Shown here piece after piece: positions 27,711 through 55,336 of a stretch of DNA of 64,000 nt (position 1 is the first letter of the stretch; each line of letters opens with the position of its first letter). The notes under the pieces were generated by a model. The model was given only the letters and a program-made list of their open reading frames with translations. It had not been told where the DNA came from and searched no databases. The DNA is from Azospira oryzae (GTDB lineage Bacteria > Pseudomonadota > Gammaproteobacteria > Burkholderiales > Rhodocyclaceae). The translations under genes and the position numbers were made by a program. The DNA lies in assembly GCF_004217225.1 (NCBI RefSeq), contig NZ_SHKM01000001.1, positions 1,588,137 through 1,652,136 of the forward strand, read 5' to 3'.

Positions 27711-27847
27711 GCGTTGCCAGCTCCCCGTGCTTGCCATGACCGGCGCCGCCGGCTGCGCCGGGACGCCACCGGGGCATTCTTGGCCCGGGGGATGTAAATA
27801 CGGGTTAAGCCCCGGGTAAATCCGGGTTAAGACGATGGCCGACCCTG

Positions 27848-27893
27848 TGCGGAATCCCGGAACGAGCGAGCCATGGCGTGCGGTTTTCCGGAA
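27848..27893 (+). promoter_or_regulatory. Tandem enhancer sites (putative DctD-type UAS) of the ABC importer operon
   Basis: Two copies of TGCGG-N4-CCGGAA lie at 27848-27862 and 27879-27893, 31 bp apart, so on the same face of the helix. The second sits in a perfect 16-bp palindrome (27882-27897, GGTTTTCC / GGAAAACC). They end about 78 bp before the -24 element of the sigma-54 promoter at 27970. The whole 27711-28045 gap (335 bases) is thus regulatory: enhancers, an A-rich linker, promoter and leader. Confidence 0.7.
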
Positions 27894-27969
27894 AACCCGG
27901 GGAGGCGCGGCACCCAAATTCCGATCCAAATCCCTGAAAAAACAATCGCCTGCAAACCTTTCCGGCGGA

Positions 27970-27985
27970 TGGCACGGTCCCTGCA
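27970..27985 (+). promoter_or_regulatory. Sigma-54 (-24/-12) promoter of the ABC importer operon
   Basis: TGGCACGGTCCCTGCA fits TGGCAC-N5-TTGCA with one change and the exact spacing of GG and GC. It lies 60 bases before the substrate-binding protein ATG. Confidence 0.75.
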
Positions 27986-28045
27986 AACAGGAGCCTCACA
28001 ACCCGGCACTGCCGCCGGGGACATCCACCCTGTGAGGAGACTTCC

Positions 28046-29032
28046 ATGCAACAACGCAAAGTTCTGGCTGCGGCCGTCACCGCCCTCTGTGCTTCCGCCC
28101 TGCTGGCCGCCGCGCCGGCCCGGGCCGAGGACGTGGTGCGCCTGGGCAACCTGAAGTTCGCCCACTACGGCGCCGTGTCCTACATGAAGGAGCTGTGCGC
28201 CAAGTACGACCTGAAGGTGGAGGAACGCATGTTCCCCAAGGGCCCGGACATCATGCCGGCCATCGTCGCCGGTGAGGTGGACATCGCCGCCCTGGCCTCC
28301 GACGGCGCCATCTCCGGCCGCGCCAACGGCGTGCCCATCTATACCGTGGCCGGCTTCGCCAAGGGCGGCGCCCGCCTGGTGGCCGGCGCCGACACCGGCA
28401 TCAAGGATATCCAGGGCCTGAAGGGCAAAAAAGTGGGCGTCACCCGGGGCGGCGCCCACGAGCTGCTGCTCTACGCCGAGCTGGAAAAGGCCGGCCTGAC
28501 CTGGTCCGACAAGCCGGGCAAGGACGTGCAGATCGTCTTCCTCGCCTTCGCCGACCTCAACCAGGCCCTGGCCGCCAAGCAGATCGACGCCATGTGCCAG
28601 TCCGAGCCCCAGTCCTCCCAGGCCCTCAACAAGAAGTTCGGGGTGGAGATCATGAAGCCCTACAACACCGCCATGGGCGAGCCGGTGCGCCTCCTGGTGA
28701 TGACCGAGAAGCTGTACAACGAGAAGAAGGACGTGGCCCAGCGGGTCATGAAGTGCTTCGTCGAAGCCACCGCCCTGTTCAACAAGGACATGGCCCTGGC
28801 GGAGAAGTACGTGCGCGAGCAGATGTTCAAGGGCCAGATCAGCTCCCAGGACTTCAAGGACGCCATGGACAACGCCGACTACACCTACGACGTTTCCCCC
28901 GAGCACATCGACATCACCACCTCCTTCATGCAGAAGTACGGCGTCGGCCGCATGGCCAAGCCGCCCAAGGCCGCCGAGTGGGTCAAGCTGGACCTGCTGC
29001 AGAAGGCCAAGACCGAACTGAAGGTGAAGTAA
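28046..29032 (+). CDS. ABC importer substrate-binding protein, NitT/TauT (NMT1) family
   Basis: 328 residues with a signal peptide (about 1-27, ending APARA) and a two-lobed periplasmic-binding fold (GNLKFAHYGAVSYM, then PAIVAGEVDIAAL, then GLKGKKVGVTRGG). It delivers a small anion to the permease encoded next. This family covers taurine, nitrate, sulfonates, thiamine precursors and some aromatic acids (phthalate-type importers). The substrate here is unknown. A sigma-54 promoter upstream and a DctB-DctD pair downstream argue for a carboxylic acid, which is inference. A clear GAGGAGA ribosome site precedes the ATG. Confidence 0.9.
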   Translation: MQQRKVLAAAVTALCASALLAAAPARAEDVVRLGNLKFAHYGAVSYMKELCAKYDLKVEERMFPKGPDIMPAIVAGEVDIAALASDGAISGRANGVPIYTVAGFAKGGARLVAGADTGIKDIQGLKGKKVGVTRGGAHELLLYAELEKAGLTWSDKPGKDVQIVFLAFADLNQALAAKQIDAMCQSEPQSSQALNKKFGVEIMKPYNTAMGEPVRLLVMTEKLYNEKKDVAQRVMKCFVEATALFNKDMALAEKYVREQMFKGQISSQDFKDAMDNADYTYDVSPEHIDITTSFMQKYGVGRMAKPPKAAEWVKLDLLQKAKTELKVK

Positions 29033-29036
29033 GGCC

Positions 29037-29855
29037 ATGCTGAAGAAACTGCAAGCCTTCGCCCACGGCGCCCTGGTGCCGGTGCTGGTGCTGATCCTGT
29101 GGGAGGCCGGCTCCCGGGCCGGCCTCTTCTCCGAGGTGCTGCTGCCCTCCCCCAGCGCCGTGGCGGTGAAATGGTGGGCCTACCTGCTGCCGACCCAGGA
29201 CTACGTCCCGGGCAGCGGCAGCTACTTCACCTGGCTCATTTCCGGCGAGTTGCTGCACGACGCCTATTCCAGCCTCTACCGGGTCATCGTCGGCTTCATC
29301 ATCGGCGCCGGCCTGGCCCTGCCCCTGGGCCTGGTGATGGGTGCCAACAACCGCATCTACGACCTGTTCAACCCCCTGGTGCAGATCCTGCGGCCGATCC
29401 CCCCCATCGCCTACATCCCGCTGGCAATCCTGTGGTTCGGCCTGGGCAACCCGCCGTCCTTCTTCCTCATCGCCATCGGCGCCTTCTTCCCGGTGCTGAT
29501 GAACACCATCGCCGGGGTGCGCCACGTGGACGGCATCTACCTGCGGGCCGCCCGCAACCTGGGGGTCAATTACTGGACCATGTTCACCCGGGTGATCCTG
29601 CCCGCCTCCACCCCCTACATCCTGGCCGGGGTGCGCATCGGCATCGGCACCGCCTTCATCGTGGTGATCGTCTCCGAGATGATCGCGGTGAACGACGGCC
29701 TCGGCTTCCGCATCCTGGAAGCCCGGGAGTTCATGTGGTCGGACAAGATCATCGCCGGCATGATCACCATCGGCCTGCTGGGCCTGGCCATCGACACCGC
29801 CGTCAGCCGCCTCAACAACCACCTGCTGCGCTGGCACCGCGGCCTGGAGCACTAA
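29037..29855 (+). CDS. ABC importer permease, NitT/TauT type
   Basis: 272 residues with six membrane helices. The cytoplasmic coupling loop reads YLRAARNLGVNYWTMFTRVILPAS (the EAA motif of TauC/SsuC-like permeases). It starts four bases after the binding-protein stop, and its own stop is followed two bases later by the ATPase gene. Confidence 0.93.
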   Translation: MLKKLQAFAHGALVPVLVLILWEAGSRAGLFSEVLLPSPSAVAVKWWAYLLPTQDYVPGSGSYFTWLISGELLHDAYSSLYRVIVGFIIGAGLALPLGLVMGANNRIYDLFNPLVQILRPIPPIAYIPLAILWFGLGNPPSFFLIAIGAFFPVLMNTIAGVRHVDGIYLRAARNLGVNYWTMFTRVILPASTPYILAGVRIGIGTAFIVVIVSEMIAVNDGLGFRILEAREFMWSDKIIAGMITIGLLGLAIDTAVSRLNNHLLRWHRGLEH

Positions 29856-29857
29856 CC

Positions 29858-30649
29858 ATGAGCGACATCCTGATTAAGGACGTGCAGAAGGTCTTCAAGA
29901 CCCCCGGCGGCGACGTCACCGCCCTCAAGGACATCAACCTCACCGTCAAGCAGGGCGAATTCGTCTGCCTGCTGGGCCCCTCCGGCTGCGGCAAATCCAC
30001 CCTGCTCAATGCCGTGGCCGGCTTCCAGCCGCCCTCGGCCGGAGAGATCGTCATCGAGGGCAAGAAGATCCTCACCCCGGGCCCGGACCGGGGCATGGTG
30101 TTCCAGGAATACGCCCTCTTCCCCTGGATGACCGTGGCCCAGAACATCGCCTTCGGCCTGCAAATCCAGAAGAAGGAGAAGGCCGAGATCGACCTGACGG
30201 TGAACCAGCTGTTGGACCTGCTGCACCTGAAGGACTTCCGCGACCGCTTCCCCAAGGACCTCTCCGGCGGCATGCGCCAGCGGGTGGCCATCGCCCGGGT
30301 GCTGGCCCTGGATTCGCCCATCATGCTCATGGACGAGCCCTTCGGCGCCCTCGACGCCCTCACCCGGCGCAACCTGCAGGACGAACTGCTGCGCATCTGG
30401 GAGAAGCTGAACAAGACCATCCTCTTCGTCACCCACTCCATCGAGGAGTCCATTTACCTCGCGGACCGCATCGTGGTCATGACCTACCGCCCCGGCACCA
30501 TCAAGCGGGACCAGTACGTCACCATGCCCCGGCCCCGGGATCCCTCCAGCCACGAGTTCAACGAGCTGAAGCGGGAGCTGGGCCGCCTGGTGATGGAGGA
30601 GCAGCAGCGCCACGCTGCCGACGAGCTGAAGCTGGCGGCGGTGGACTAG
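29858..30649 (+). CDS. ABC importer ATP-binding protein, NitT/TauT type
   Basis: 263 residues. Walker A is GPSGCGKST (about 39-47), the Q-loop is FQEYALFPW, the signature is LSGGMRQRVAIAR, Walker B is IMLMDEPFGALD, and the H-loop is VTHSIEES. It powers the importer encoded by the two preceding genes. A terminator follows, so the downstream dctB gene is probably a separate unit. Confidence 0.95.
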   Translation: MSDILIKDVQKVFKTPGGDVTALKDINLTVKQGEFVCLLGPSGCGKSTLLNAVAGFQPPSAGEIVIEGKKILTPGPDRGMVFQEYALFPWMTVAQNIAFGLQIQKKEKAEIDLTVNQLLDLLHLKDFRDRFPKDLSGGMRQRVAIARVLALDSPIMLMDEPFGALDALTRRNLQDELLRIWEKLNKTILFVTHSIEESIYLADRIVVMTYRPGTIKRDQYVTMPRPRDPSSHEFNELKRELGRLVMEEQQRHAADELKLAAVD

Positions 30650-30657
30650 GCACCGCC

Positions 30658-30689
30658 GCGGGGGGGGCGGCTGCCGTCCCCCGCTTTTT
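30658..30689 (+). terminator. Probable terminator of the ABC importer operon
   Basis: GCGGGGG (from 30658) can pair with CCCCCGC (30678-30684) around a GC-rich loop and is followed by TTTTT. Confidence 0.6.
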
Positions 30690-30792: not shown

Positions 30793-32625
30793 GTGTCCCT
30801 GCCGCCCCTGCCCGCCCCCGCCACCTCCAGCCGCCGCCGGCTGCTGCTGGGCACCGCCCTGCTCGCCGCCTGCCTTGTCTTCGGCTGGCTCGCCTACCGG
30901 GTGGCCCTGACCATCTTCCTCGATGGCGAACGGCAGAACGCCGCCCGCCGCCTGGAGTTCTACGCCCTTTCCCTGGAAGCCACCCTGGCCCGCTACGAGG
31001 CCCTGCCCGGCCTGCTGGCCCTGGAGCACAAGCTGCACGAACTGCTGGCCCAGCCCGCCGGCAGCGCCCAGGCCAAGGCCGCCAACGCCTATCTGAAGAC
31101 TGCCCAGAGCGGCGCCGAGATCAGTGCCGCCTACCTCATCGACCGCCGCGGCCACACCCTGGCCGCCAGCAACTGGGACAAGGCGGGCAGCTTCGTCGGC
31201 CACAACTACGCCTTCCGCCCCTATTTCCGGGAAGCCATCAAGGGTAGCCTGGGCCGTTTCTACGGCGTCGGCGCCACCACCGGCGAGCCGGGCTACTTCC
31301 TCGCCGCCCCGGTGCGGGACGGCAGCCACGGCCCCATCGAGGGCGTGGTCACCATCAAGGTGAACCTGGCCCCCTTCGAATCCGCCCTGGCCAGGAGCGG
31401 CGACACCGTGCTGCTGGCCGACGACGAGGGCGTCATCTTCCTCGCCCCCAAAGCCGAGTGGCGCTACCGCACCCTGGCCCCCCTCTCCCCCCTGGCCCGG
31501 GAACGGCTGGCGGCCAGCCGCAAGTACGGCGACAGTCCCCTGGAACCCCTCATCAGCGACCGGGCCCTGGAAGACGGCAGCGTGCGCCTGGCGGTGACCG
31601 ACCGGCGCCCCCGGGACCTGCTCATGGAAAGCCAGGCGGTGGGCCACCAGGGCTGGCGCGTGGTGCTCCTCACCGACCCGGCGGAAGCCCGCCGCAGCGC
31701 CCTCGGCGCCGGCTTCACCGCCGCCTTCGCCCTGGCCTTCGTGCTGGCCCTGGCGGCCCACCAGAACCTGCGCCGCAAGCGCCGGGCCGAACTGCACCAG
31801 GCCCATGCCGCCCTGGAGGCGGCCATCGCCGAACGCACCGCCGACCTGACCCGCAAGGTGGAAGCCCTCAAGCAGGCCGAGGCGATCCTGCACCAGACCC
31901 GGGACACGGCGGTGCAGGCCGGCAAGCTGGCGGTGCTGGGCCAGATGTCCGCCGGCATGAGCCACGAACTGAACCAGCCCCTGGCCGCCCTGCAGACCTT
32001 CTCCGACAACGCCGTGGCCCTCATGGACCTGGGCCGCCTGGAGGAAGTGCGGGAGAACCTGGCCATGATCCGCCAGCTCACCGCCCGCCTGGGGCGCATC
32101 GTCACCCAGCTCAAGTCCTTCTCGCGCAAGGGCCCGGCGGAAAAGAGCCCGGTCCCCGTGGCCCGGGCCGTGGACAACGCCCTGCTGATCCTGGAACCGC
32201 GGCGGCGGGAGCTGCAGGCCGCCATCCAGGTGGCGCCCATCGCCCCAGAACTGGCGGTGCTGGCCGACACCACCCGCCTGGAGCAGGTACTGGTGAACCT
32301 GCTGCGCAACGGCCTCGACGCCATGCAGGAGCGGCCGGCGCCCCGCCTGCACCTGCAGGCCGAACGGCGGGGCTCCCAGGTGCGCATCGCCATCCGCGAC
32401 GAGGGCCCGGGCCTGCCGCCGGAGGTCCTGGCCCACCTGTTCGAGCCCTTCTACACCACCAAGCCCGTGGGCGAAGGCCTGGGCCTGGGCCTGGCCATTT
32501 CCCTGGCCATCGTCGAAGGCTTCGGCGGTCGCCTGGAGGGCAGCAACCGGCCGGAAGGCGGCGCCGAATTCGCTATCATCCTGGAAGCCGCCAGCGGCAC
32601 CCAGCCAACCCCCATCTCCGCCTGA
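30793..32625 (+). CDS. dctB: DctB-type C4-dicarboxylate sensor histidine kinase (copy 1)
   Basis: 610 residues from a GTG start. TM1 (about 17-37) is followed by a double-PAS/Cache periplasmic sensor (SFVGHNYAFRPYFREAIKG, GATTGEPGYFLAAPV), TM2 (about 300-320), a coiled coil (ERTADLTRKVEAL) and the kinase core. H391 lies in MSHELNQPLAAL, and the HATPase has RDEGPGLPPE and GLGLGLAIS. DctB senses C4-dicarboxylates outside and phosphorylates DctD. It is 143 bases downstream of the ABC operon. Between it and its regulator gene lies a tautomerase gene. The gap upstream contains no enhancer copy that I can see. Confidence 0.88.
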   Translation: MSLPPLPAPATSSRRRLLLGTALLAACLVFGWLAYRVALTIFLDGERQNAARRLEFYALSLEATLARYEALPGLLALEHKLHELLAQPAGSAQAKAANAYLKTAQSGAEISAAYLIDRRGHTLAASNWDKAGSFVGHNYAFRPYFREAIKGSLGRFYGVGATTGEPGYFLAAPVRDGSHGPIEGVVTIKVNLAPFESALARSGDTVLLADDEGVIFLAPKAEWRYRTLAPLSPLARERLAASRKYGDSPLEPLISDRALEDGSVRLAVTDRRPRDLLMESQAVGHQGWRVVLLTDPAEARRSALGAGFTAAFALAFVLALAAHQNLRRKRRAELHQAHAALEAAIAERTADLTRKVEALKQAEAILHQTRDTAVQAGKLAVLGQMSAGMSHELNQPLAALQTFSDNAVALMDLGRLEEVRENLAMIRQLTARLGRIVTQLKSFSRKGPAEKSPVPVARAVDNALLILEPRRRELQAAIQVAPIAPELAVLADTTRLEQVLVNLLRNGLDAMQERPAPRLHLQAERRGSQVRIAIRDEGPGLPPEVLAHLFEPFYTTKPVGEGLGLGLAISLAIVEGFGGRLEGSNRPEGGAEFAIILEAASGTQPTPISA

Positions 32626-32644: not shown

Positions 32645-33004
32645 ATGCCCCACCTGACCCTGGAATACAGCGCCAACCTCTCCCTGGACCCGGCCGCCGG
32701 CCTCGCCGCCCTCAACCGCTGCCTGGCCGACTCCGGCCTCTTCGAGGAAGCCGACATCAAGAGCCGGGCCCTGGCCCTGGATATATTCTGCGTCGGCACC
32801 GCCGCCACGCCCCGGGCCTTCGCCCACGCCAAGTTGAGCCTCATGCCGGGACGCAGCATGGACACCAGGAAGCAGTTGGCCGACAGCCTGCTGGCCGCCC
32901 TCTCGCCCCTGGTGCAGGCGGCACCGGGTACCGAACTGCAGCTGTGCGTGGAGCTGTTCGAGATCGACCGGGCCAGCTATGCCAAGGAGAGCCGCCGTGT
33001 CTGA
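32645..33004 (+). CDS. 5-carboxymethyl-2-hydroxymuconate isomerase-like tautomerase (HpaF family)
   Basis: 119 residues, the usual size. The first residue after Met is the catalytic proline of the tautomerase superfamily (MPHLTLEYSANL). The rest follows the CHMI pattern (DIFCVGTA, FAHAKLSLMPGRS, LCVELFEID). CHMI isomerises an intermediate of homoprotocatechuate breakdown. No other gene of that pathway is in the window. The gene starts 19 bases after dctB and overlaps the dctD start by eight bases, so it is translated as part of the signalling operon. It may act on the ligand that the system senses. Confidence 0.8.
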   Translation: MPHLTLEYSANLSLDPAAGLAALNRCLADSGLFEEADIKSRALALDIFCVGTAATPRAFAHAKLSLMPGRSMDTRKQLADSLLAALSPLVQAAPGTELQLCVELFEIDRASYAKESRRV

Positions 33005-34343
33005 GGCCGCCGCCCTGCCGGTCTTTCTCGTCGAGGACGATCCGGCGGTGCGCATGGGCAGCGCCCAGGCCCTGACCCTGGCCGGCCTGGAGGTGCGCAG
33101 CTTCGCCGATGCCGAAGGGGCCCTGGCGGCCCTGGCCGCCGAACTGCCCGGGGCCGTGGTCAGCGACGTGCGCCTGCCGGGCAGGGACGGCATCGCCCTG
33201 CTGGGCGAACTGCGCCAGCTGGACCGGGAGCTGCCGGTGATCCTGGTCACCGGCCACGGCGACGTGGCCATGGCGGTGCAGGCCATGCGCGACGGCGCCC
33301 ACGACTTCATCGAAAAACCCTTCACTTCCGAACATCTGGTGCGGGTCACCCGCCAGGCCCTGGAGAAGCGGGCCCTGCTGCTGGAAAACCGGCGCCTCAA
33401 GGAAGCCCTGCCGACCCAGGATGGCCTGCCGGTGATCGGCCAGACCCCGGCCATGCAGGAGGTGCGCCGCCTGGTGGCGGCCCTGGCCCCCACCGATGTG
33501 GACATCCTCATCAACGGCGAGACCGGCAGCGGCAAGGAAGTGGTGGCCCGGGCCATCCACAGCGCCTCCGGCCGGCGCGGCCCCTTCGTCGCCATCAACT
33601 GCGCCGCCCTGCCCGAGAGCGTCTTCGAGAGCGAGATGTTCGGCCACGAGGCGGGAGCCTTCACCGGCGCCGGCAAGCGGCGCATCGGCAAGATCGAATA
33701 CGCCCACGGCGGCACCCTGTTCCTCGACGAAATCGAGTCCATGCCCCTCAACCTCCAGGTCAAGCTGCTGCGGGCCCTGCAGGAGCGCAGCATCGAGCGC
33801 CTCGGCGGCAACGCCCCGGTGGCCGTGGATTGCCGGGTGGTGGCCGCCTCCAAGGCCGACCTCAAGGCCCTCTCCGAGGCCGGCCAGTTCCGCGCCGACC
33901 TCTACTACCGGCTCAACGTGGTCAGCATCGACCTGCCGCCCCTGCGCCAGCGCCAGGAGGACATTCCCCTGCTCATGGGCCACTTCCTGCAGCAGGCGGC
34001 CAAGCGCTTCGGCCGGGAAGTGCCGGCCTGGGGCCCGGCCGAGCTGGCCCGCTGGCAGGCCCAGCCCTGGCCGGGCAACGTGCGGGAGCTGAAGAACGCG
34101 GCGGAGCGCTTCTGCCTGGGCCTGGACCAGCCCCAGGCGGCATCCGCGGCGGGCAGCACCCCGGGGGCCGAGCTGCCCCTGGCCCGACGCCTGGAACTGG
34201 CGGAACAGGGCTTCATCGAGGCCGCCCTGGCGGCCTGCCACGGCAATGTGGCCCTGGCGGCCGAGCGCCTGCAGCTGCCGAAGAAGACCCTCTACGACAA
34301 GCTGGCCCGCCTGCAGATCGCCGCCGACACCTTCCGCCGCTGA
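32997..34343 (+). CDS. dctD: DctD-type sigma-54 activator (copy 1)
   Basis: 448 residues. A receiver (phospho-acceptor D57 in VVSDVRLPG) precedes an AAA+ sigma-54 interaction domain: Walker A GETGSGKE, the GAFTGA loop in HEAGAFTGAGKR, and Walker B TLFLDEIESM. A Fis-type helix-turn-helix ends in AERLQLPKKTLYDKLARL. It would activate -24/-12 promoters from upstream sites, probably the one at 27970. The GTG at 32997 is preferred because AAGGAG stands eight bases before it; an ATG 18 bases upstream lacks a ribosome site. Confidence 0.9.
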   Translation: MSEAAALPVFLVEDDPAVRMGSAQALTLAGLEVRSFADAEGALAALAAELPGAVVSDVRLPGRDGIALLGELRQLDRELPVILVTGHGDVAMAVQAMRDGAHDFIEKPFTSEHLVRVTRQALEKRALLLENRRLKEALPTQDGLPVIGQTPAMQEVRRLVAALAPTDVDILINGETGSGKEVVARAIHSASGRRGPFVAINCAALPESVFESEMFGHEAGAFTGAGKRRIGKIEYAHGGTLFLDEIESMPLNLQVKLLRALQERSIERLGGNAPVAVDCRVVAASKADLKALSEAGQFRADLYYRLNVVSIDLPPLRQRQEDIPLLMGHFLQQAAKRFGREVPAWGPAELARWQAQPWPGNVRELKNAAERFCLGLDQPQAASAAGSTPGAELPLARRLELAEQGFIEAALAACHGNVALAAERLQLPKKTLYDKLARLQIAADTFRR

Positions 34344-34439
34344 AGCCGCCGGCCGGGGCCCTTGCCGGGCCCGGTCCGATGCCGTCAAAATGGGTGGCAC
34401 AAGAAGCGGCCCCCCAGGGCCGCAAACCGGGAGGCTCCC

Positions 34440-35609
34440 GTGCCTGCGCGATTCGACAACGGCATCACCGGCACCATCCTGCTGGCGGACGATTCCGCCC
34501 TGGACCGCCATCTGTTCACCCAGCTGCTGCAGCGCTACGGCCACACGGTGCACGCCGTGGCCGACGGGGCCCAGGCCCTGGCCGCCCTCGACGGCCTGCA
34601 GCCGGACCTGGTGCTGCTGGACATCCGCATGCCCGACATGAGCGGGCTGGAGCTGTGCGCCAAGCTCAAGGCCGACCCGGCCACCCGGGACATCCCGGTG
34701 ATTTTCATCAGTGCCGCCAGCGCCGTGGAGGACCGCATCCAGGCCTTTTCCTGCGGCGGCGTGGACTACATCGGCAAGCCCATCAAGAGCGAGGAAGTGC
34801 AGGCCCGGGTCACCACCCACCTGACCCTGCGGGCCCTGCGCCGCACCCTGGAACTGCGGGTGCAGGAGCGCACGGCGGAACTGGAAGTGGCCAACCGGCA
34901 CCTCAGCGCGGAGATCACCGAACGCCGCCGCATGGCCCAGGAACTGCTCGAATCCCGGCAGCAGCTGCGGGACCTGGCCGCCCACGGCGAAGCCGCCATG
35001 GAGCAGGAGCGCAAGCGCATCGCCCGGGAGATCCACGACGAGCAGGGCTCCCTGCTGACCGCCCTGAAAATGGACCTGACCCTGCTGCGACGGGAGCTGG
35101 GCGACGCCCCGCCGGCCATCGGCCAACGCCTGGACACCATGCAGCATCTGGTGGAGGAGGCGGTGCGGGTGATGCGCCAGGTGGCCTCCCAGCTGCGTCC
35201 GGCGGTGCTCAACCTGGGCATCCTGCCGGCCCTGGAATGGCTCACCGAAGAATTCCGCCAGCGCACCGGCATCGCCTGCCACCTGCTGGCCGGGGACGAC
35301 ATTCCCCTGGACGACAGCCGGGCCACCACCCTCTTCCGCATCGTCCAGGAATCCCTCACCAACGTCACCCGTCATGCCGAGGCCAGCCAGGTGGACATCG
35401 GCCTGAGCCTGGAGGCGGAGCACATCCGCCTGGAGATCGCCGACAACGGCAAGGGCTTCGACCCCAGCCAGGTGGGCGGCAACTCCTTCGGCCTGCTGGG
35501 CATGGGCGAGCGCCTGGAAGCCCTGGGCGGCAAGCTGCGCATCGACAGTGCCCCGGGCCGGGGCACCCGCCTGCACATCACCATTCCCCTGGCGGAGGAA
35601 CTGCCATGA
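34440..35609 (+). CDS. Hybrid: receiver plus NarX/DegS-type (HisKA_3) histidine kinase
   Basis: 389 residues from a GTG start with GGGAGG upstream. An N-terminal receiver (D61 in VLLDIRMPD) is followed by a coiled coil (about 130-185) and a HisKA_3 dimerisation domain with H199 in RIAREIHDEQGS. The HATPase ends it (RIVQESLTNVTRHA, NGKGFDPSQ, FGLLGMGERLEALGG). It has no membrane segment, so it is a cytoplasmic relay: its receiver could take phosphate from another kinase. It overlaps the NarL-type gene by four bases, and that protein is its evident partner. Confidence 0.9.
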   Translation: MPARFDNGITGTILLADDSALDRHLFTQLLQRYGHTVHAVADGAQALAALDGLQPDLVLLDIRMPDMSGLELCAKLKADPATRDIPVIFISAASAVEDRIQAFSCGGVDYIGKPIKSEEVQARVTTHLTLRALRRTLELRVQERTAELEVANRHLSAEITERRRMAQELLESRQQLRDLAAHGEAAMEQERKRIAREIHDEQGSLLTALKMDLTLLRRELGDAPPAIGQRLDTMQHLVEEAVRVMRQVASQLRPAVLNLGILPALEWLTEEFRQRTGIACHLLAGDDIPLDDSRATTLFRIVQESLTNVTRHAEASQVDIGLSLEAEHIRLEIADNGKGFDPSQVGGNSFGLLGMGERLEALGGKLRIDSAPGRGTRLHITIPLAEELP

Positions 35610-36235
35610 TCCGCATCCTGCTGGCCGACGACCACAGCATCGTACGCAGCGGCCTCAAGCAACTCCTGGCCACGGAAGCCGACCTGGAGGTGGCCGGCGA
35701 GGCCAGCCAGGGCAGCGAGGTCCTGACCCGGCTGCGCCAGGGCGGCATCGACCTGCTGCTGATGGACATGTCCATGCCCGGCATCAGCGGCCTGGACCTG
35801 ATCCGCCGCGCCCATACTGAAGCGCCGGAGGTCCCCGTCGTCGTCCTCAGCATGCACAACGAGAGCCAGCTGGTGTCCCGGGCCCTGCGCGCCGGCGCCA
35901 GCGGCTACGTGACCAAGGACAGCGACCCGGCCATTCTCCTGGCGGCCATCCGCAAGGTGGCCAAGGGCGGCCGCTTCATCGACCCGGCCCTGGTGGACGC
36001 CATGGTCTTCGGCGCCCCGGAAGAGGCGCCGCCCCACGAGGCCCTCTCCGACCGGGAATTCGAGGTGCTGCAGCTGCTCAGCCAGGGCCTGGCCCTGGCC
36101 GCCGTGGGCGAACGGCTGCACGTCAGCGCCAAGACCGTCAGCACCCACAAGACCCGCCTCATGCAGAAACTCGGCATCGACAACAATGCCGAACTGGTGC
36201 GCTACGCCCTGCGCCACGGCCTGGGCCGGCCCTAG
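35606..36235 (+). CDS. NarL/FixJ-family response regulator
   Basis: 209 residues: a receiver with D54 (LLMDMSMPGISG) and a LuxR-type helix-turn-helix (about 145-205: LSDREFEVLQLLSQG, VSAKTVSTHKTRLMQKLGI). It is coupled by an ATGA overlap to the hybrid kinase. Its target genes are unknown. The chemosensory operon that begins 250 bases further on, or the dct genes upstream, are candidates by position only. Confidence 0.93.
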   Translation: MIRILLADDHSIVRSGLKQLLATEADLEVAGEASQGSEVLTRLRQGGIDLLLMDMSMPGISGLDLIRRAHTEAPEVPVVVLSMHNESQLVSRALRAGASGYVTKDSDPAILLAAIRKVAKGGRFIDPALVDAMVFGAPEEAPPHEALSDREFEVLQLLSQGLALAAVGERLHVSAKTVSTHKTRLMQKLGIDNNAELVRYALRHGLGRP

Positions 36236-47624: not shown

Positions 47625-47775
47625 GGCATCGCCGGCGGGAGCGGCAGCGGTCAGGGGCTTGGCGGACACAGGGAGCAGGTAGGGATGGGGGGAAGAAGCA
47701 GGGGCGAATCTTAGCAGGTTTGCCCGGCGCCACGAAAAGCGCCGCAGCCCCACGGAGCCGCCGCCGGCCTATCCA

Positions 47776-47821
47776 TTCGGATTTCCGAACGCCATGCTCA
47801 GCCTTTGTCCGGAAAGCCGAA
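47776..47821 (+). promoter_or_regulatory. Tandem enhancer sites (putative DctD-type UAS) of aspA
   Basis: A perfect TTCGGA-TT-TCCGAA repeat lies at 47776-47789 and a degenerate copy, TCCGGA-AA-GCCGAA, at 47808-47821. Their centres are 32 bp apart. They end about 75 bp before the -24 element of the aspA sigma-54 promoter. The 336-base gap 47625-47960 is thus regulatory, with an A-rich linker between enhancer and promoter. Confidence 0.75.
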
Positions 47822-47894
47822 CGACACCCCCAAAACGACGGTCAAAACCCCATAAAAAACAAGCCACTAAAAACCAGATCCACCTCCCTCCCGA

Positions 47895-47910
47895 TGGCAC
47901 GGCCCGTGCT
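47895..47910 (+). promoter_or_regulatory. Sigma-54 (-24/-12) promoter of aspA
   Basis: TGGCACGGCCCGTGCT has the invariant GG and GC at the right spacing and shares ATGGCACGG with the promoter at 27970. The start codon of aspA is 50 bases downstream. Confidence 0.75.
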
Positions 47911-47960: not shown

Positions 47961-49379
47961 ATGAACCAGCCACACCGCGTCGAACACGACCTGCTGGGCG
48001 ACCGCAAGGTCCCGGCCGAGGCCTATTACGGCGTCCATACCCTGCGGGCGGTGGAGAACTTCCCCATCACCGGCACCCCCATCTCCATCTACCCGGACCT
48101 GATCCGGGCCCTGGCCCAGATCAAGCTCGCCGCCGCCAAGGCCAACGAGCAACTGGGCCTGCTGGAAGCCCCCCTGGCCCAGGCCATCGTCGCCGCCTGC
48201 CAGGAGGTGATCGCCGGCAAGCTGCACGAACAGTTCGTGGTGGACGTCATCCAGGGCGGCGCCGGCACCTCCACCAACATGAACGCCAACGAGGTCATCG
48301 CCAACCGGGCCCTGGAAATCATGGGCCATGCCAAGGGCGAGTACCAGCACCTGCATCCCAACCAGCACGTGAACATGAGCCAGTCCACCAACGACGTGTA
48401 CCCGTCGGCGCTGAAGCTGGCCACCTACGTCGGCATCTTCCGCCTGGTGGACGCCCTGGCCTATCTGCGCCGCACCTTCGAGCGCAAGGCCGAGGAGTTC
48501 AAGGACGTGCTGAAGATGGGCCGTACCCAGCTGCAGGACGCGGTGCCCATGACCCTGGGCCAGGAATTCTCCACCTACGCCGTGATGCTGGGCGAAGACG
48601 AGGAGCGGCTGAAGGAAGCCGCCCTCCTGATCCGGGAAATCAACCTGGGGGCCACCGCCATCGGCACCGGCATCAATGCCCACCCGGACTACGCTCCCCT
48701 GGTCTGCCGCCTGCTGGCCGAAACCAGCGGCGTGCCGGTCATCACCGCCCCCAACCTGGTGGAGGCGACCCAGGACTGCGGTTCCTTCGTGCAGCTCTCC
48801 GGCGTCCTGAAGCGGGTGGCGGTGAAGCTGTCCAAGACCTGCAACGACCTGCGCCTGCTCTCCTCCGGCCCCCGCGCCGGCTTCGGCGAGATCAACCTGC
48901 CGCCGCGCCAGGCCGGCTCCTCCATCATGCCGGGCAAGGTCAATCCGGTGATCCCGGAAGTGGTGAACCAGATCGCCTTCGAGGTCATCGGCAACGACCA
49001 GACCGTCACCTTCGCCGCCGAGGCGGGCCAGCTCCAGCTCAACGCCTTCGAACCCATCATCGCCCACAGCCTGTTCAAGAGCGTCAATCACCTGCGTCAG
49101 GGCTGCCTGACCCTGGCCGACCGCTGCGTGGACGGCATCACCGCCAACCGGGATGCCCTGCGGGCCCGGGTGGAGAACTCCATCGGCATCGTCACCGCGC
49201 TGAACCCGTACATCGGCTACGCCGCCGCCACCTCGGTGGCTGCCGAAGCCCTGGAATCGGGCAAGGGCGTGGCCGAGATCGTGCTGGCCCGGGGCCTCAT
49301 GAGCCGGGCCGAGCTGGACGACGTGCTGCGCCCCGAAGTGCTGACCCAACCCCGCGCCCTGCCCCACCGCCAGGGCTGA
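47961..49379 (+). CDS. aspA: Aspartate ammonia-lyase
   Basis: 472 residues of the fumarase/aspartase superfamily. EHDLLGDRKVPAEAYYGVHT at the N-terminus marks aspartase rather than class II fumarase. HVNMSQSTNDVYPSA, TATG-like segments and the signature GSSIMPGKVNP carry the active site. It converts aspartate to fumarate and ammonia. Upstream are a sigma-54 promoter and DctD-like enhancers, and downstream is a dicarboxylate/amino-acid symporter, so the group takes up and uses C4 acids. AGGAG precedes the ATG. Confidence 0.93.
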   Translation: MNQPHRVEHDLLGDRKVPAEAYYGVHTLRAVENFPITGTPISIYPDLIRALAQIKLAAAKANEQLGLLEAPLAQAIVAACQEVIAGKLHEQFVVDVIQGGAGTSTNMNANEVIANRALEIMGHAKGEYQHLHPNQHVNMSQSTNDVYPSALKLATYVGIFRLVDALAYLRRTFERKAEEFKDVLKMGRTQLQDAVPMTLGQEFSTYAVMLGEDEERLKEAALLIREINLGATAIGTGINAHPDYAPLVCRLLAETSGVPVITAPNLVEATQDCGSFVQLSGVLKRVAVKLSKTCNDLRLLSSGPRAGFGEINLPPRQAGSSIMPGKVNPVIPEVVNQIAFEVIGNDQTVTFAAEAGQLQLNAFEPIIAHSLFKSVNHLRQGCLTLADRCVDGITANRDALRARVENSIGIVTALNPYIGYAAATSVAAEALESGKGVAEIVLARGLMSRAELDDVLRPEVLTQPRALPHRQG

Positions 49380-49389
49380 AACCGTTTGC

Positions 49390-49420
49390 GCCGGCAGCCC
49401 GCTGCCGGCCCCTTTTTTTT
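49390..49420 (+). terminator. Terminator between aspA and the symporter gene
   Basis: GCCGGCAG / CTGCCGGC with loop CCCG is followed by CCC and T8. It may let only part of the aspA transcript reach the symporter gene; no second strong promoter is obvious in the 50 bases after it. Confidence 0.75.
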
Positions 49421-49470
49421 CTGACTTTTACTGATCTTGACCGCCGCCCCCGCGGCAACGGAGCCCTTCG

Positions 49471-50784
49471 ATGAAAATGAACAAGCTCACCACCTGGATC
49501 GTCCTGGCCATGCTGGCCGGGGTCGGCGTCGGCTATGCCTGCAACACCATGGCCCCCGACGCCGCCAGCGCCAAGGAAATCGCCGGCTATTTCAGCATCC
49601 TCACCGACATTTTCCTGCGCCTGATCAAGATGATCATCGCCCCCCTCATCTTCGCCACCCTGGTGGCGGGCCTGGCCAACATGGGCGACGCCAAGGCTGT
49701 CGGCCGCGTCGGCGGCCGCGCCCTGGGCTGGTTCATCTGCGCCTCCTTCTGTTCCCTCTTCATCGGCCTGCTCTTCGCCAATGTGCTGCAGCCGGGCCAC
49801 GCCTTGAGCGTGCCCCTGCCCGAGTCCGCCGCCGGCCTCAACCTGAAAACCTCGGCCCTCAACCTGAAGGACTTCATCACCCACGTCTTCCCCAAGAGCA
49901 TCATGGAAGCCATGGCCGGCAATGAAGTGCTGCAGATCCTGGTCTTCGCCGTGTTCTTCGGCCTGGCCCTGGGCCACCTGCACAACCAGGCCGCCCGCTC
50001 CCTGGTGAACACCATGGACGAAGTGGTGCACGTGATGCTGAAGGTCACCGACTACGTCATGCGCTTCGCTCCCTTCGGCGTCTTCGGCGCCGTGGCCGGT
50101 GCCATCACCACCAACGGCCTGGGCATGCTGCTGGTGTTCGGCAAGTTCATGCTCAGCTTCTACGTCGCCCTGGCCGCCCTGTGGGCCCTCCTGATCCTGG
50201 CCGGCTTCATCGTCCTGGGCAAGGACGTGTTCCGTCTCATCAAGCTGGTGCGCGGCCCGCTGCTGGTGGGCTTCTCCACCGCCTCCAGCGAGTCCGTCTA
50301 TCCCAAGCTGATGGAACAGCTGGAAAAGTTCGGCATCAAGACCCGCGTCACCGGTTTCGTCCTGCCCCTGGGTTATTCCTTCAACCTGGACGGCTCCATG
50401 ATGTACACCACCTTCCTGGCCCTGTTCATCGCCCAGGCCTACGACATCCCCATGAGCCTGACCGCCCAGATCACCATGCTGCTGGTGCTGATGGTCTCCT
50501 CCAAGGGTATCGCCGGTGTGCCGCGGGCTTCCCTGGTGGTGGTGGCCGCCGTGCTGCCCATGTTCAACCTGCCGGAAGCCGGCCTGCTGCTGGTGCTGGG
50601 CATCGACCACTTCCTCGACATGGGCCGCACCGTCACCAACGTGCTGGGCAACTCCATCGCCACCGCCGTGGTGGCCAAGTGGGAAGGGGCCATCGACCCG
50701 GTGAGCGAGGAGCTGGCCGAGGCCGAGGAATCCCTGCCGGTGCCGGAAGACGATTCCCTGGTCACCGCCAAGGCCGCCGCCTGA
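49471..50784 (+). CDS. Dicarboxylate/amino-acid:cation symporter (DctA/GltP family)
   Basis: 437 residues. The core motifs are the serine-rich hairpin ASSESVYPKLMEQLEKFG, helix 7 with YSFNLDGSMMYTTF, and the second hairpin MVSSKGIAGVPRAS. Helix 8 carries the substrate-binding GRTVTNVLGNSIATAV. It imports C4-dicarboxylates or acidic amino acids with Na+ or H+. The aspA neighbour makes aspartate or fumarate the likely load. The second DctB-DctD pair, 1.3 kb downstream, is the expected regulator. Confidence 0.92.
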   Translation: MKMNKLTTWIVLAMLAGVGVGYACNTMAPDAASAKEIAGYFSILTDIFLRLIKMIIAPLIFATLVAGLANMGDAKAVGRVGGRALGWFICASFCSLFIGLLFANVLQPGHALSVPLPESAAGLNLKTSALNLKDFITHVFPKSIMEAMAGNEVLQILVFAVFFGLALGHLHNQAARSLVNTMDEVVHVMLKVTDYVMRFAPFGVFGAVAGAITTNGLGMLLVFGKFMLSFYVALAALWALLILAGFIVLGKDVFRLIKLVRGPLLVGFSTASSESVYPKLMEQLEKFGIKTRVTGFVLPLGYSFNLDGSMMYTTFLALFIAQAYDIPMSLTAQITMLLVLMVSSKGIAGVPRASLVVVAAVLPMFNLPEAGLLLVLGIDHFLDMGRTVTNVLGNSIATAVVAKWEGAIDPVSEELAEAEESLPVPEDDSLVTAKAAA

Positions 50785-52109: not shown

Positions 52110-53990
52110 ATGCCACCCAGCCAGCGCCTCTTCCGCCTCGCCATCCTGCTCCTGGGCTTCGCCGCCCTGGTGGGCGGCACCAGCCTGCTGGCCTTCCGCT
52201 TCAGCCTGGCCATGGGCCTGGCCGAACTGCAGGCCACGGGCCGGCACCGGCTGGACCTCTACGCCACCAGCCTGGAGCGGGAAATCGACAAGTACGCCTA
52301 CTTCCCCACCACCCTGGGGCTGGAAAAGGACGTGCTGCACCTGCTCACCACCCCCAAGCCCACGCCGGCCCAGATCGAACAGCTCAATCTATACCTCGAG
52401 CAGCTCAACGAGCGGGCCGGCACCCTTTCCATCTACGTCCTCAATGTCAATGGCCGGGTCATGGCCACCAGCAACTGGCGCCGCCCGGATAGCTACCTGG
52501 GGGAAGACCTCTCCTTCCGCCCCTATTTCCGCCAGGCCATGGATACGGGCAGCGGCCGCTTCTTCGGCATCGGCACCACCCGAGGCGAGCCGGGTTACTA
52601 CCTGACCTCGGCCCTGACCAACGCCCAGGGCACGGTGGGCGTGGCGGTGCTCAAGGTGGGCCTGCAACAGCTGGAAAAGACCTGGTCCACCGTGGAGGCT
52701 CCGGCCCTGGTGGCGGACGAGAACGGCGTGGTCATCCTGGCCTCGGTGCCGGACTGGAAATTCACCACCCTGAAGCCCCTGGACGATGCCACCCGCCGTG
52801 CCTTCGACCAGACCCAGCAGTACAACCGCCGCGCCCTCAACCCCCTGGGGGTGGTGGAGCTGGCGGAACTGGACCACGGCGCCCGTCTGGTGCGCCTGCC
52901 CAAGGCCGGGCCGGAGATGGTTTCCATGTTCCCGGTGGCCGGCAAGTTCCTGGCCCAGACCCAGCCCCTGCCGGGCACCCCCTGGACCATCACCGTTTTC
53001 TCCCACCAGGAGCAGGTGCGTGAAATCGCCGCCAACCGGGCCGCCCTGGCCGGCATCGGCGCCGCCTTCCTGTGCATCCTGGCCCTCATGTTCAACGAAC
53101 GCCGCCGCCATGTACGGGACCGGTTGGCCGCCCGGGAAGCCCTGCAGAAGGCCCACGACGAGCTGGAACGCAAGGTGGAGGAGCGCACGGCCGACCTCTC
53201 CGCCGCCAACACCCGCCTGCAGGAAGAAGTGGCTGAGCGCACCCGGGCCGAGCGTACCCTGCGCGCCGCCCAGGACGAGCTGGTGCAGGCCGGCAAGCTG
53301 GCGGTACTCGGCCAGCTCTCCGCCGGCGTCGCCCACGAACTGAACCAGCCCCTGGCGGCCCTGCGCACCCTTTCCGGCAACGCCCGCAAATTCCTCGCCC
53401 GGGGCGACCAGGAAACCGCCGGCAGCAACCTGGAGCGTATCGGCGAACTGGTGGACCGCATGGGCCGCCTCACCGGCCAGTTGAAGTCCTTCGCCCGCAA
53501 ATCCACCGGCAAGCCCCAGGCCGTGCCCATCCGGCGGGCGGTAGAGAACGCCCTGTTCCTGCTGGAACAGCGCCTGCAACGGGCCGGCGTGGTGGCCTGC
53601 ATCGACCTGCCCGAGGAAGAGCTGCTGGCTTGGTGCGACCCCAACCGGCTGGAACAGGTGCTGGTCAATCTGGCCGCCAATTCCCTCGACGCCATGGCCG
53701 GCCGTCCCCAGCAGGCCCTGGACATCAGCGCCCGGCGCCAGGGTGAGCGCATCGAGGTGAAGGTGCGGGACCAGGGCCCGGGCCTGGACGAGGAAGCCCG
53801 CAGCCACCTGTTCGAGCCCTTCTTCACCACTAAGGAAGCCGGCAGCGGCCTGGGCCTGGGCCTGGCCATTTCCGCCGGTATCGTCGCCGATTTCGGCGGC
53901 AACCTGACGGGGGACAACCACCCCGATGGCGGCGCTGTGTTCACCCTGGACCTGCCGGCCGCTCCCGCCGCCCCTGGAGCCCTCTCATGA
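52110..53990 (+). CDS. dctB: DctB-type C4-dicarboxylate sensor histidine kinase (copy 2)
   Basis: 626 residues. TM1 (about 8-30) is followed by a Cache-type periplasmic sensor with the DctB signature SFRPYFRQAMDTGSGRFFGI and RGEPGYYLTSAL. TM2 (about 305-325), a long coiled coil, HisKA with H409 (AGVAHELNQPLAAL) and HATPase (DQGPGLDEE, GLGLGLAISAG) complete it. It senses C4-dicarboxylates outside and acts on the DctD encoded next, with which it shares four bases. It is paralogous to the copy at 30793. The sensor domains differ enough to suggest different ligand ranges. Confidence 0.92.
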   Translation: MPPSQRLFRLAILLLGFAALVGGTSLLAFRFSLAMGLAELQATGRHRLDLYATSLEREIDKYAYFPTTLGLEKDVLHLLTTPKPTPAQIEQLNLYLEQLNERAGTLSIYVLNVNGRVMATSNWRRPDSYLGEDLSFRPYFRQAMDTGSGRFFGIGTTRGEPGYYLTSALTNAQGTVGVAVLKVGLQQLEKTWSTVEAPALVADENGVVILASVPDWKFTTLKPLDDATRRAFDQTQQYNRRALNPLGVVELAELDHGARLVRLPKAGPEMVSMFPVAGKFLAQTQPLPGTPWTITVFSHQEQVREIAANRAALAGIGAAFLCILALMFNERRRHVRDRLAAREALQKAHDELERKVEERTADLSAANTRLQEEVAERTRAERTLRAAQDELVQAGKLAVLGQLSAGVAHELNQPLAALRTLSGNARKFLARGDQETAGSNLERIGELVDRMGRLTGQLKSFARKSTGKPQAVPIRRAVENALFLLEQRLQRAGVVACIDLPEEELLAWCDPNRLEQVLVNLAANSLDAMAGRPQQALDISARRQGERIEVKVRDQGPGLDEEARSHLFEPFFTTKEAGSGLGLGLAISAGIVADFGGNLTGDNHPDGGAVFTLDLPAAPAAPGALS

Positions 53991-55336
53991 GCCAACAAGA
54001 GTCCCTGCAAGTGCTGCTGGTGGAAGACGATCCGGACGTGCGTCTGGGCTGCGAACAGGCCCTGCAACTGGAAGATATTCCGGTGAGCAGCGTCGATAGC
54101 GCCGAGAAGGCCCGCCGCCGTCTGACCCGGGACTTTCCCGGCATCGTCGTCAGCGACATCCGCCTGCCGGGTATGGACGGCATGGCCCTGCTCAAGGAGC
54201 TGCAGGCCATCGACCCGGAGCTGCCGGTGGTGCTCATCACCGGCCACGGCGACGTTTCCCTGGCGGTGCAAGCCATGAAGGGCGGCGCCCACGACTTCAT
54301 CGAAAAGCCCTTTTCCCCCGACTACCTGGTGGAAGTGGTACGCCGCGCCCTGGACAAACGCCGCCTGACCCTGGAAGTACGGCAACTCAGGGCCCGCCTG
54401 GAAAGCCGGGATACCCTGGAAGCCCGCCTCATCGGCCGCTCCCCGGCCATGGTCAAGGTGCGCCAGCTGGTGGCGGACCTGGGCAACAGCGCCGCCGACA
54501 TCCTCATTTTTGGCGAGACCGGCACCGGCAAGGAACTGGCGGCCCGCTGCCTGCACGAAGCCGGCCCGCGGCGGAACGGCAACTTCGTCGCCATCAACTG
54601 CGGCGGCCTGCCCGAGACCCTGTTCGAGAGCGAAATCTTCGGCCACGAGGCCGGCGCCTACACCGGCGCCGCCAAGAAGCGCATCGGCAAGATCGAGCAC
54701 GCCAGCGGCGGCACCCTGTTCCTGGACGAAATCGAGTCCATGCCCATGGCCATGCAGATCAAGCTGCTGCGGGTGTTGCAGGAGCGCAGCCTGGAACGCC
54801 TGGGCTCCAACACGCCCATTCCCGTGGATTGCCGGGTGATCGCCGCCACCAAGGCGGATCTCAAGGAACTCTCGGACCAGGGCCGCTTCCGCGCCGACCT
54901 CTACTATCGGCTCAACGTCGCCACCCTGCCCCTGCCGCCCTTGCGGGAGCGGCGGGAGGACATTCCCCTGCTGTTCGAACACTTCCTGCTGCAAGCCGCC
55001 GCCCGCCACGAGCGCCCGGTGCCCGCCGCCGATCCGGCGCGCATGGGGCCCCTGCTGGCCTATGACTGGCCGGGGAATGTGCGGGAACTGAGGAACGTGG
55101 CGGATCGTTGCGTGCTGGGGATTGAGGCGGGGGTGGCTCCGTTCACCGCGGAGTCGCCCGCTCAAAAGCGCTCCCTGGCCGAAACCGTGGACAGCTTCGA
55201 ACGGGCCCTCATCACCGAAGCCCTTGAAAGAAACCAGGGCAGTTTGGCGCGGACCGCGGAAGACCTGAGAATCGCCAAGACCACGCTACACGACAAAATC
55301 CGGAAATACGGCCTGGCCAACCAGCCATCGGGCTAA
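53987..55336 (+). CDS. dctD: DctD-type sigma-54 activator (copy 2)
   Basis: 449 residues. Receiver with D57 (VVSDIRLPGMDG), AAA+ domain with GETGTGKE and TLFLDEIESMP, and a Fis-type helix-turn-helix ending TAEDLRIAKTTLHDKIRK. The sigma-54 contact loop is GAYTGA rather than GAFTGA, a conservative change that other activators tolerate. The recognition helix (AKTTLHDKIRK) differs from that of copy 1 (PKKTLYDKLAR), in line with the different enhancer sequences. Its probable targets are the aspA promoter at 47895 and its own gene. Confidence 0.93.
   Translation: MSQQESLQVLLVEDDPDVRLGCEQALQLEDIPVSSVDSAEKARRRLTRDFPGIVVSDIRLPGMDGMALLKELQAIDPELPVVLITGHGDVSLAVQAMKGGAHDFIEKPFSPDYLVEVVRRALDKRRLTLEVRQLRARLESRDTLEARLIGRSPAMVKVRQLVADLGNSAADILIFGETGTGKELAARCLHEAGPRRNGNFVAINCGGLPETLFESEIFGHEAGAYTGAAKKRIGKIEHASGGTLFLDEIESMPMAMQIKLLRVLQERSLERLGSNTPIPVDCRVIAATKADLKELSDQGRFRADLYYRLNVATLPLPPLRERREDIPLLFEHFLLQAAARHERPVPAADPARMGPLLAYDWPGNVRELRNVADRCVLGIEAGVAPFTAESPAQKRSLAETVDSFERALITEALERNQGSLARTAEDLRIAKTTLHDKIRKYGLANQPSG

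Follow-up and report, generated by a model that had tools for sequence, protein, structure and literature searches.

DctBD-type two-component systems are known to drive DctA, DctPQM, an MFS transporter and an ABC importer of a family other than the one described here. In R. meliloti, DctD binds the 18-mer TGTGCGgaaatCCGCACA, and two DctD sites lie upstream of dctA (PMC11077940). In Pseudomonas, the DctBD-type pair AauSR controls, together with RpoN, the ABC importer AatJQMP (PMC7962211), and MifSR runs the 2-oxoglutarate transporter PA5530 (PMC4482717). DctBD-type control of one dedicated transporter is already well known, and what appears to be new at the Azospira oryzae locus analysed here is the target, an importer of the NitT/TauT type. 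An earlier sequence-only reading of this DNA had considered NitT/TauT importers unusual as DctD targets. No such importer under DctBD-type control was found in our literature search, which covered mainly open-access papers. As a statement about ABC importers in general the claim had to be softened, because AauSR, itself of the DctBD type, controls AatJQMP.

The locus resembles the Rhizobium/Sinorhizobium DctB-DctD-dctA system in that a pair of DctD palindromes stands in tandem before a -24/-12 promoter and in its homologous sensor, activator and recognition helix, and in several relatives the same 18-mer, intact or almost so, precedes the importer. However, the target is an ABC importer operon of the NitT/TauT type instead of the DctA symporter, and the regulator genes follow their target on the same strand, with a tautomerase gene between them. 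AauS-AauR/aatJQMP likewise combines a DctBD-type system and RpoN with an ABC importer, but AatJ is an acidic-amino-acid substrate-binding protein (SBP) of another family, whereas the SBP here is of the NMT1 type. MifS-MifR/PA5530 also pairs a DctBD-type system and RpoN with one dedicated carboxylate transporter, in that case a PRK10406-type MFS symporter and here an ABC operon. On the evidence of sequence and of its conservation, we consider it quite probable that the importer promoter governs a self-contained cassette for carboxylate uptake, run by the adjacent DctB1-DctD1 pair.

The importer promoter and the genes that follow it

The stretch analysed, called the window below, is 64 kb long. 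The features that matter here are the following.

27846-27863, plus strand: putative enhancer site 1, TGTGCGGAATCCCGGAAC, a degenerate DctD-type palindrome matching the R. meliloti DctD site at 13/18
27877-27894, plus strand: putative enhancer site 2, CGTGCGGTTTTCCGGAAA, matching the same site at 12/18
27970-27985, plus strand: sigma-54 -24/-12 element TGGCACGGTCCCTGCA, one mismatch to TGGCAC-N5-TTGCW
28046-29032, plus strand: SBP, NMT1/SsuA-like, NitT/TauT type (Pfam NMT1_2 1e-24; SsuA_fam 9e-42, below cut-off)
29037-29855, plus strand: ABC permease (Pfam BPD_transp_1)
29858-30649, plus strand: ABC ATPase (Pfam ABC_tran)
30662-30682, plus strand: weak terminator-like hairpin between the importer operon and dctB1 (hairpin scan)
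30793-32625, plus strand: dctB1, sensor histidine kinase with a dCache sensor (dCache_1, 5e-17; HisKA; HATPase_c)
32645-33004, plus strand: CHMI-type tautomerase gene between dctB1 and dctD1 (PF02962, 2.5e-17; Pro1 kept)
32997-34343, plus strand: dctD1, sigma-54 activator and proposed regulator (receiver, AAA+ with GAFTGA, Fis-type HTH)
47774-47823, plus strand: for comparison, the two TTCGG/TCCGG-N4-CCGAA sites before aspA-dctA, with a spacing of 32 bp
47895-47910, plus strand: sigma-54 element TGGCACGGCCCGTGCT before aspA-dctA, for comparison
47961-50784, plus strand: aspA and dctA (Lyase_1 with FumaraseC_C; SDF)
52110-55336, plus strand: second DctBD pair, dctB2 (predicted start) and dctD2 (53987-55336)

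The importer element agrees with the published sigma-54 rule of TGGCAC, 5-7 nt and TGC (PMC12316311), since TGGCAC and TGCA are separated by GGTCCC at 27970-27985. Transcription is predicted to start near 27996, ahead of the first importer gene at 28046, and the genome holds a single copy of rpoN (one PF04552 match, 9.6e-67). The two sites occupy the intergenic space that separates the importer operon from a divergent minus-strand TPR/glycosyltransferase gene; they are 31 bp or about three helical turns apart, and site 2 ends 75-77 bp before the TGGCAC of the element. This is where the sequence-only reading had placed two near-identical sites, 31 bp from each other and about 78 bp before a -24/-12 promoter. 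It had also described them as enhancers of the form TGCGG-N4-CCGGAA. The site cores, TGCGGAATCCCGGAA at 27848-27862 and TGCGGTTTTCCGGAA at 27879-27893, are the only exact matches to that form in the window and two of the six in the 3.45-Mb genome, and the sites themselves stand. The asymmetric motif was dropped, because relatives carry a palindrome of which the CCGGAA half is only a variant. We prefer to interpret the importer sites as degenerate forms of TGTGCGG-N4-CCGCACA, with a 3' half that deviates from the DctD consensus in both. With two such sites upstream of the -24 box, the promoter would belong to the DctD-dependent class; in S. meliloti GR4, our positive control, the 18-mer TGTGCGgaaatCCGCACA precedes dctA together with TGGCACGCATGTTGCT.

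We searched for the whole layout with the independently footprinted R. meliloti 18-mer, asking for two sites 30-32 bp apart and a sigma-54 element of at least 11/12. With at least 12/18 per site, the importer promoter was the only place found in the window, and the layout appeared in 0/200 dinucleotide shuffles. At 11/18 or more, a second place emerged before aspA-dctA (47774-47910), and pattern searches of the whole genome (TGCA and AGCA forms) returned the layout at the importer and aspA-dctA only. A chance resemblance in GC-rich DNA has in its favour that single TGCGG-N4-CCGCA-like sites are frequent; the genome contains 568 matches with at most one mismatch to TGCGG-N4-CCGCA, compared with 448 for the control, and a single-site search is uninformative because such sites number in the hundreds. 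The shuffles, the conservation described below and the count of only two such promoters genome-wide nevertheless reduce the probability of this explanation to almost nothing.

Behind the promoter, the same strand carries in order the SBP, permease, ATPase, dctB1, tautomerase and dctD1 genes. The hairpin after the ATPase gene is a weak call, since the scan found 6 hairpins in comparison with 4.2 +/- 2.1 in shuffles. The operon combines an SBP of the NMT1/SsuA-type fold with a single permease gene and a single ATPase gene, as NitT/TauT importers do, and it resembles SsuABC, TauABC and NrtABC in fold and subunit make-up, but none of the curated models for these systems is matched above its cut-off. 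Thus, the SBP does not qualify as an ortholog of SsuA, TauA or NrtA (SsuA_fam 143.2 against a cut-off of 163.5 bits; TauA 37.6 against 304), and it shares about 20% identity with solved members of these types. Its AlphaFold model (pLDDT 90.5; an earlier fold from ten close sequences was poor, at 63.6) has a predicted fold that best matches SsuA, TauA, NrtA and CmpA. The Pfam matches of the SBP were to NMT1 families only, with no amino-acid SBP family among them.

The DctB-DctD pair that the sequence-only reading had seen just beyond the importer operon corresponds to dctB1 and dctD1. DctB1 carries a DctB-like double PDC/dCache sensor on a kinase, matching solved DctB structures (3by9, 2.6e-34; 3e4o, 8.3e-29). 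In a motif-level alignment with solved DctB its FRPYF, G-T and GYF motifs line up, as does the following Lys, and the sensor domain appears related to succinate-binding DctB along the binding region. DctD1 is an NtrC-class activator with receiver, GAFTGA-bearing AAA+ and Fis-type HTH domains, and its recognition helix, PKKTLYDKL, is close to the PRKTFYDKL of S. meliloti DctD. Its most likely start is the GTG at 32997, behind AAGGAG and overlapping the tautomerase stop. The genes directly 3' of dctD1 (34362-36235) encode a receiver-histidine-kinase hybrid and a NarL-type regulator, and further signalling genes come after them. The tautomerase gene (32645-33004) and the second DctBD pair of the window had no place in the sequence-only reading.

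Association of the promoter with dctBD among relatives

We then considered how the promoter behaves across genomes. Among 150 other genomes of the family of A. oryzae, nine possess the importer SBP (76-88% identity). A dctB-(CHMI)-dctD unit adjoins the importer in six of these, all six with a -24/-12 element and DctD-like palindromes; the other three have no dctBD nearby, no -24/-12 element and no DctD-like sites. As regards conservation of the sites, the seven importer and dctBD genomes of the family have at least two DctD-like palindromes in all but one case, which has one. These seven are also exactly the seven best-scoring genomes in a search with DctD1, and no match of that level was found in the three family genomes whose importer has no adjacent dctBD.

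A wider set of loci was drawn from GTDB species, in which 462 relatives of the importer were found. Relatives that keep both importer and dctBD, where loss of the regulatory sequences was looked for, all keep the -24/-12 element (36/36), as against 5/36 loci without adjacent dctBD (Fisher p 3e-15, relatedness ignored). This linkage, directly observed, supports the earlier proposal of a carboxylate-sensing circuit that would drive an ABC importer. The joint occurrence of the sigma-54 switch and the regulator makes on-demand uptake of an organic acid the probable task of the importer. On the SBP tree, the dctBD adjacency label changes at least six times; well-supported branches yield four independent pairs, of which a mean of 3.5 show the promoter changing along with dctBD and none shows the reverse (p=0.125), a test that cannot reach significance because there are only four such pairs. 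In one locus nested in the dctBD-bearing clade, from an Azonexus MAG (L058), dctBD and promoter have both been lost.

Two of the five elements without dctBD are weak, and the remaining three belong to Azospirillum and come with twin GGCGG-N4-CCGCC sites. Adjacency of dctBD is therefore not strictly required, and in Azospirillum the regulator may be encoded at a distance. The Azospirillum loci L102, L111, L112 and L145 combine a perfect or near-perfect sigma-54 element with twin GGCGG-N4-CCGCC sites 32 bp apart and no adjacent dctBD. One could imagine, from these loci, from the roughly 12 sigma-54 activators of the A. oryzae genome and from the similar twin sites at Glu/Asp-type importers of the family, that another activator (NtrC or AauR-like) controls the promoter and that the adjacency of dctBD is incidental. 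We regard this as very improbable, given that adjacency and promoter co-vary and that the importer sites match the DctD footprint sequence, not the AauR-like TTCGG type.

The twin sites are not as widespread as the promoter. With the TGCGG-type motif they were detected in 15/36 importer-dctBD loci and in none of the Chromobacterium and Pandoraea groups. Intact or near-intact copies of the R. meliloti DctD palindrome precede the importer in L054 (18/18), L055 (17/18) and L036 (17/18), the 15-mer TGCGGAATCCCGGAA recurs in inverted orientation upstream of the importer in loci L012/L057 and L016/L055, and the commonest spacing of non-overlapping sites among relatives is 31 bp. The importers of S. 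fredii and R. lusitanum have a sigma-54 element before them (12/12 and 11/12), a divergent DctBD behind them and no CGG-N4-CCG sites. In the rhizobial megaplasmid importer-DctB-DctD units L143 and L144, which have sigma-54 promoters, the DctD helix is divergent (PHRTLNEK), and repeats of the type TTGGCAA...TTGCC stand in place of CGG-N4-CCG sites.

The paralogous DctBD pair at aspA-dctA

The aspA-dctA locus of the same window, with dctB2-dctD2, has a comparable organization: twin sites, a sigma-54 element and a paralogous regulator, DctD2 being 58% identical to DctD1. It differs in its TTCGG half-sites, its 32-bp spacing and its recognition helix, AKTTLHDKI, which is unlike that of S. meliloti DctD. 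More generally, the half-site of the importer promoters is TGCGG; before aspA-dctA and before the Glu/Asp-type importers of the family it is TTCGG, with a spacing of mostly 32 bp. Since helices and half-sites differ in step, the comparison points to DctD1 as the regulator of the importer and suggests that the two circuits are insulated from each other. The importer promoter might also be sigma-54 dependent and driven mainly by DctD2, or by both DctDs, with the adjacent pair serving another target. The relatedness of the two proteins, the likeness of the layouts and the CGG-N4-CCG core common to both sites lend some weight to this alternative, which is improbable in view of the TTCGG-N4-CCGAA sites at 32 bp before aspA-dctA and its family relatives as opposed to TGCGG at 31 bp before the importer, of the matching change in recognition helices, and of the importer genomes without adjacent dctBD, which have neither DctD1 nor the sites.

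We therefore retain DctD1 as the importer regulator and propose the following scenario. The dCache domain of DctB1 would bind a small periplasmic carboxylate, for which a dicarboxylate of the C4 or C5 type is the likeliest candidate, and the ligand-bound kinase would phosphorylate DctD1. We infer that DctD1 would then occupy both sites (27846-27894) side by side on one face of the DNA, oligomerise and, through DNA looping and ATP hydrolysis, open the sigma-54 RNA polymerase complex at 27970-27985, switching on the importer operon (28046-30649). DctB2-DctD2 would run aspA-dctA from a like layout, the TTCGG as against TGCGG half-site keeping the circuits apart. Two paralogous DctBD circuits in one 64-kb window, differing mainly at one half-site base and in the recognition helix, offer a clean case for studying insulation among sigma-54 activators. 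Several Glu/Asp-type SBP genes of the family (L124-L128, L132, L138) have a twin-site sigma-54 layout of their own, mostly TTCGG, that resembles AauR control.

Ligand class and imported substrate

CHMI-type tautomerases are known from homoprotocatechuate breakdown. The gene stands between dctB and dctD in 14/36 importer-dctBD loci, all of the Rhodocyclales clade (the window, L032, L034, L043, L045, L047, L048, L050-L055 and L057), with the catalytic proline kept. Neighbouring catabolic genes gave no clue to the substrate: the neighbours vary among loci, and none is constant beside the importer-dctBD units. This lack would fit an acid that enters central metabolism directly. Sequence and fold searches of the PDB gave the family of the SBP only and not its ligand; this fold family includes binders of sulfonates, nitrate, bicarbonate and thiamin precursors.

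The Pandoraea cluster that holds importer and dctBD also contains a DctA symporter. In genomes without the importer, sister DctBDs of DctD1 (L154, L155, L156, L157, L159, L160 and L146) lie beside transporters of the KgtP-type (PRK10406) MFS, TAXI-TRAP and DASS classes, and in several of these units the palindrome recurs ahead of the transporter gene: TGTGCGGATTTCCGCACA precedes a KgtP-type MFS gene, and a DASS symporter gene has twin sites 31 bp apart. The 2-oxoglutarate transporter PA5530 belongs to the PRK10406 family, as do the MFS transporters beside sister DctBDs L154 and L146, and a TAXI system of Proteus is specific for 2-oxoglutarate (PMC11574862). Together, these kinships and the Pandoraea DctA make a C4/C5 dicarboxylate, 2-oxoglutarate first, our best guess for the imported substrate. 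The circuit could also be real and serve another compound, for example an aromatic or sulfonated carboxylate, to which DctB1 would be tuned; the sulfonate, nitrate and bicarbonate binders among the fold matches, the tautomerase between dctB1 and dctD1 and the absence of consistently adjoining catabolic genes speak for this. We hold it to be less likely than not, because the DctA symporter in Pandoraea and the carboxylate transporters beside sister DctBDs speak against it, and the absence of dedicated catabolic genes fits an acid of central metabolism.

Retaining a C4/C5 dicarboxylate as substrate, we speculate, with a confidence that falls a little short of even for the two statements jointly, that this DctBD branch is a portable carboxylate-sensing cassette, coupled by TGCGG-N4-CCGCA sites and a sigma-54 promoter to at least four unrelated transporter classes (NitT/TauT ABC, KgtP-type MFS, TAXI-TRAP and DASS), and that its NitT/TauT branch is an unrecognised class of importers that use ATP to take up C4/C5 dicarboxylates, 2-oxoglutarate for example. 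The importer family occurs in several hundred species, and its annotation otherwise goes no further than nitrate/sulfonate/taurine-like; the locus gives it a candidate regulator, candidate sites and a candidate ligand class, which makes its substrate testable. One of the MFS-DctBD units is carried by a conjugative plasmid of Burkholderia ambifaria. Finally, in two distant lineages a gene for a small secreted single-Cache (sCache_2) protein lies between the importer ATPase gene and dctB (oriented coordinates 7561-8022 in L034; 12656-13153 in L083), and in L034 it is followed by a further insertion of about 3 kb, possibly a chemoreceptor gene.
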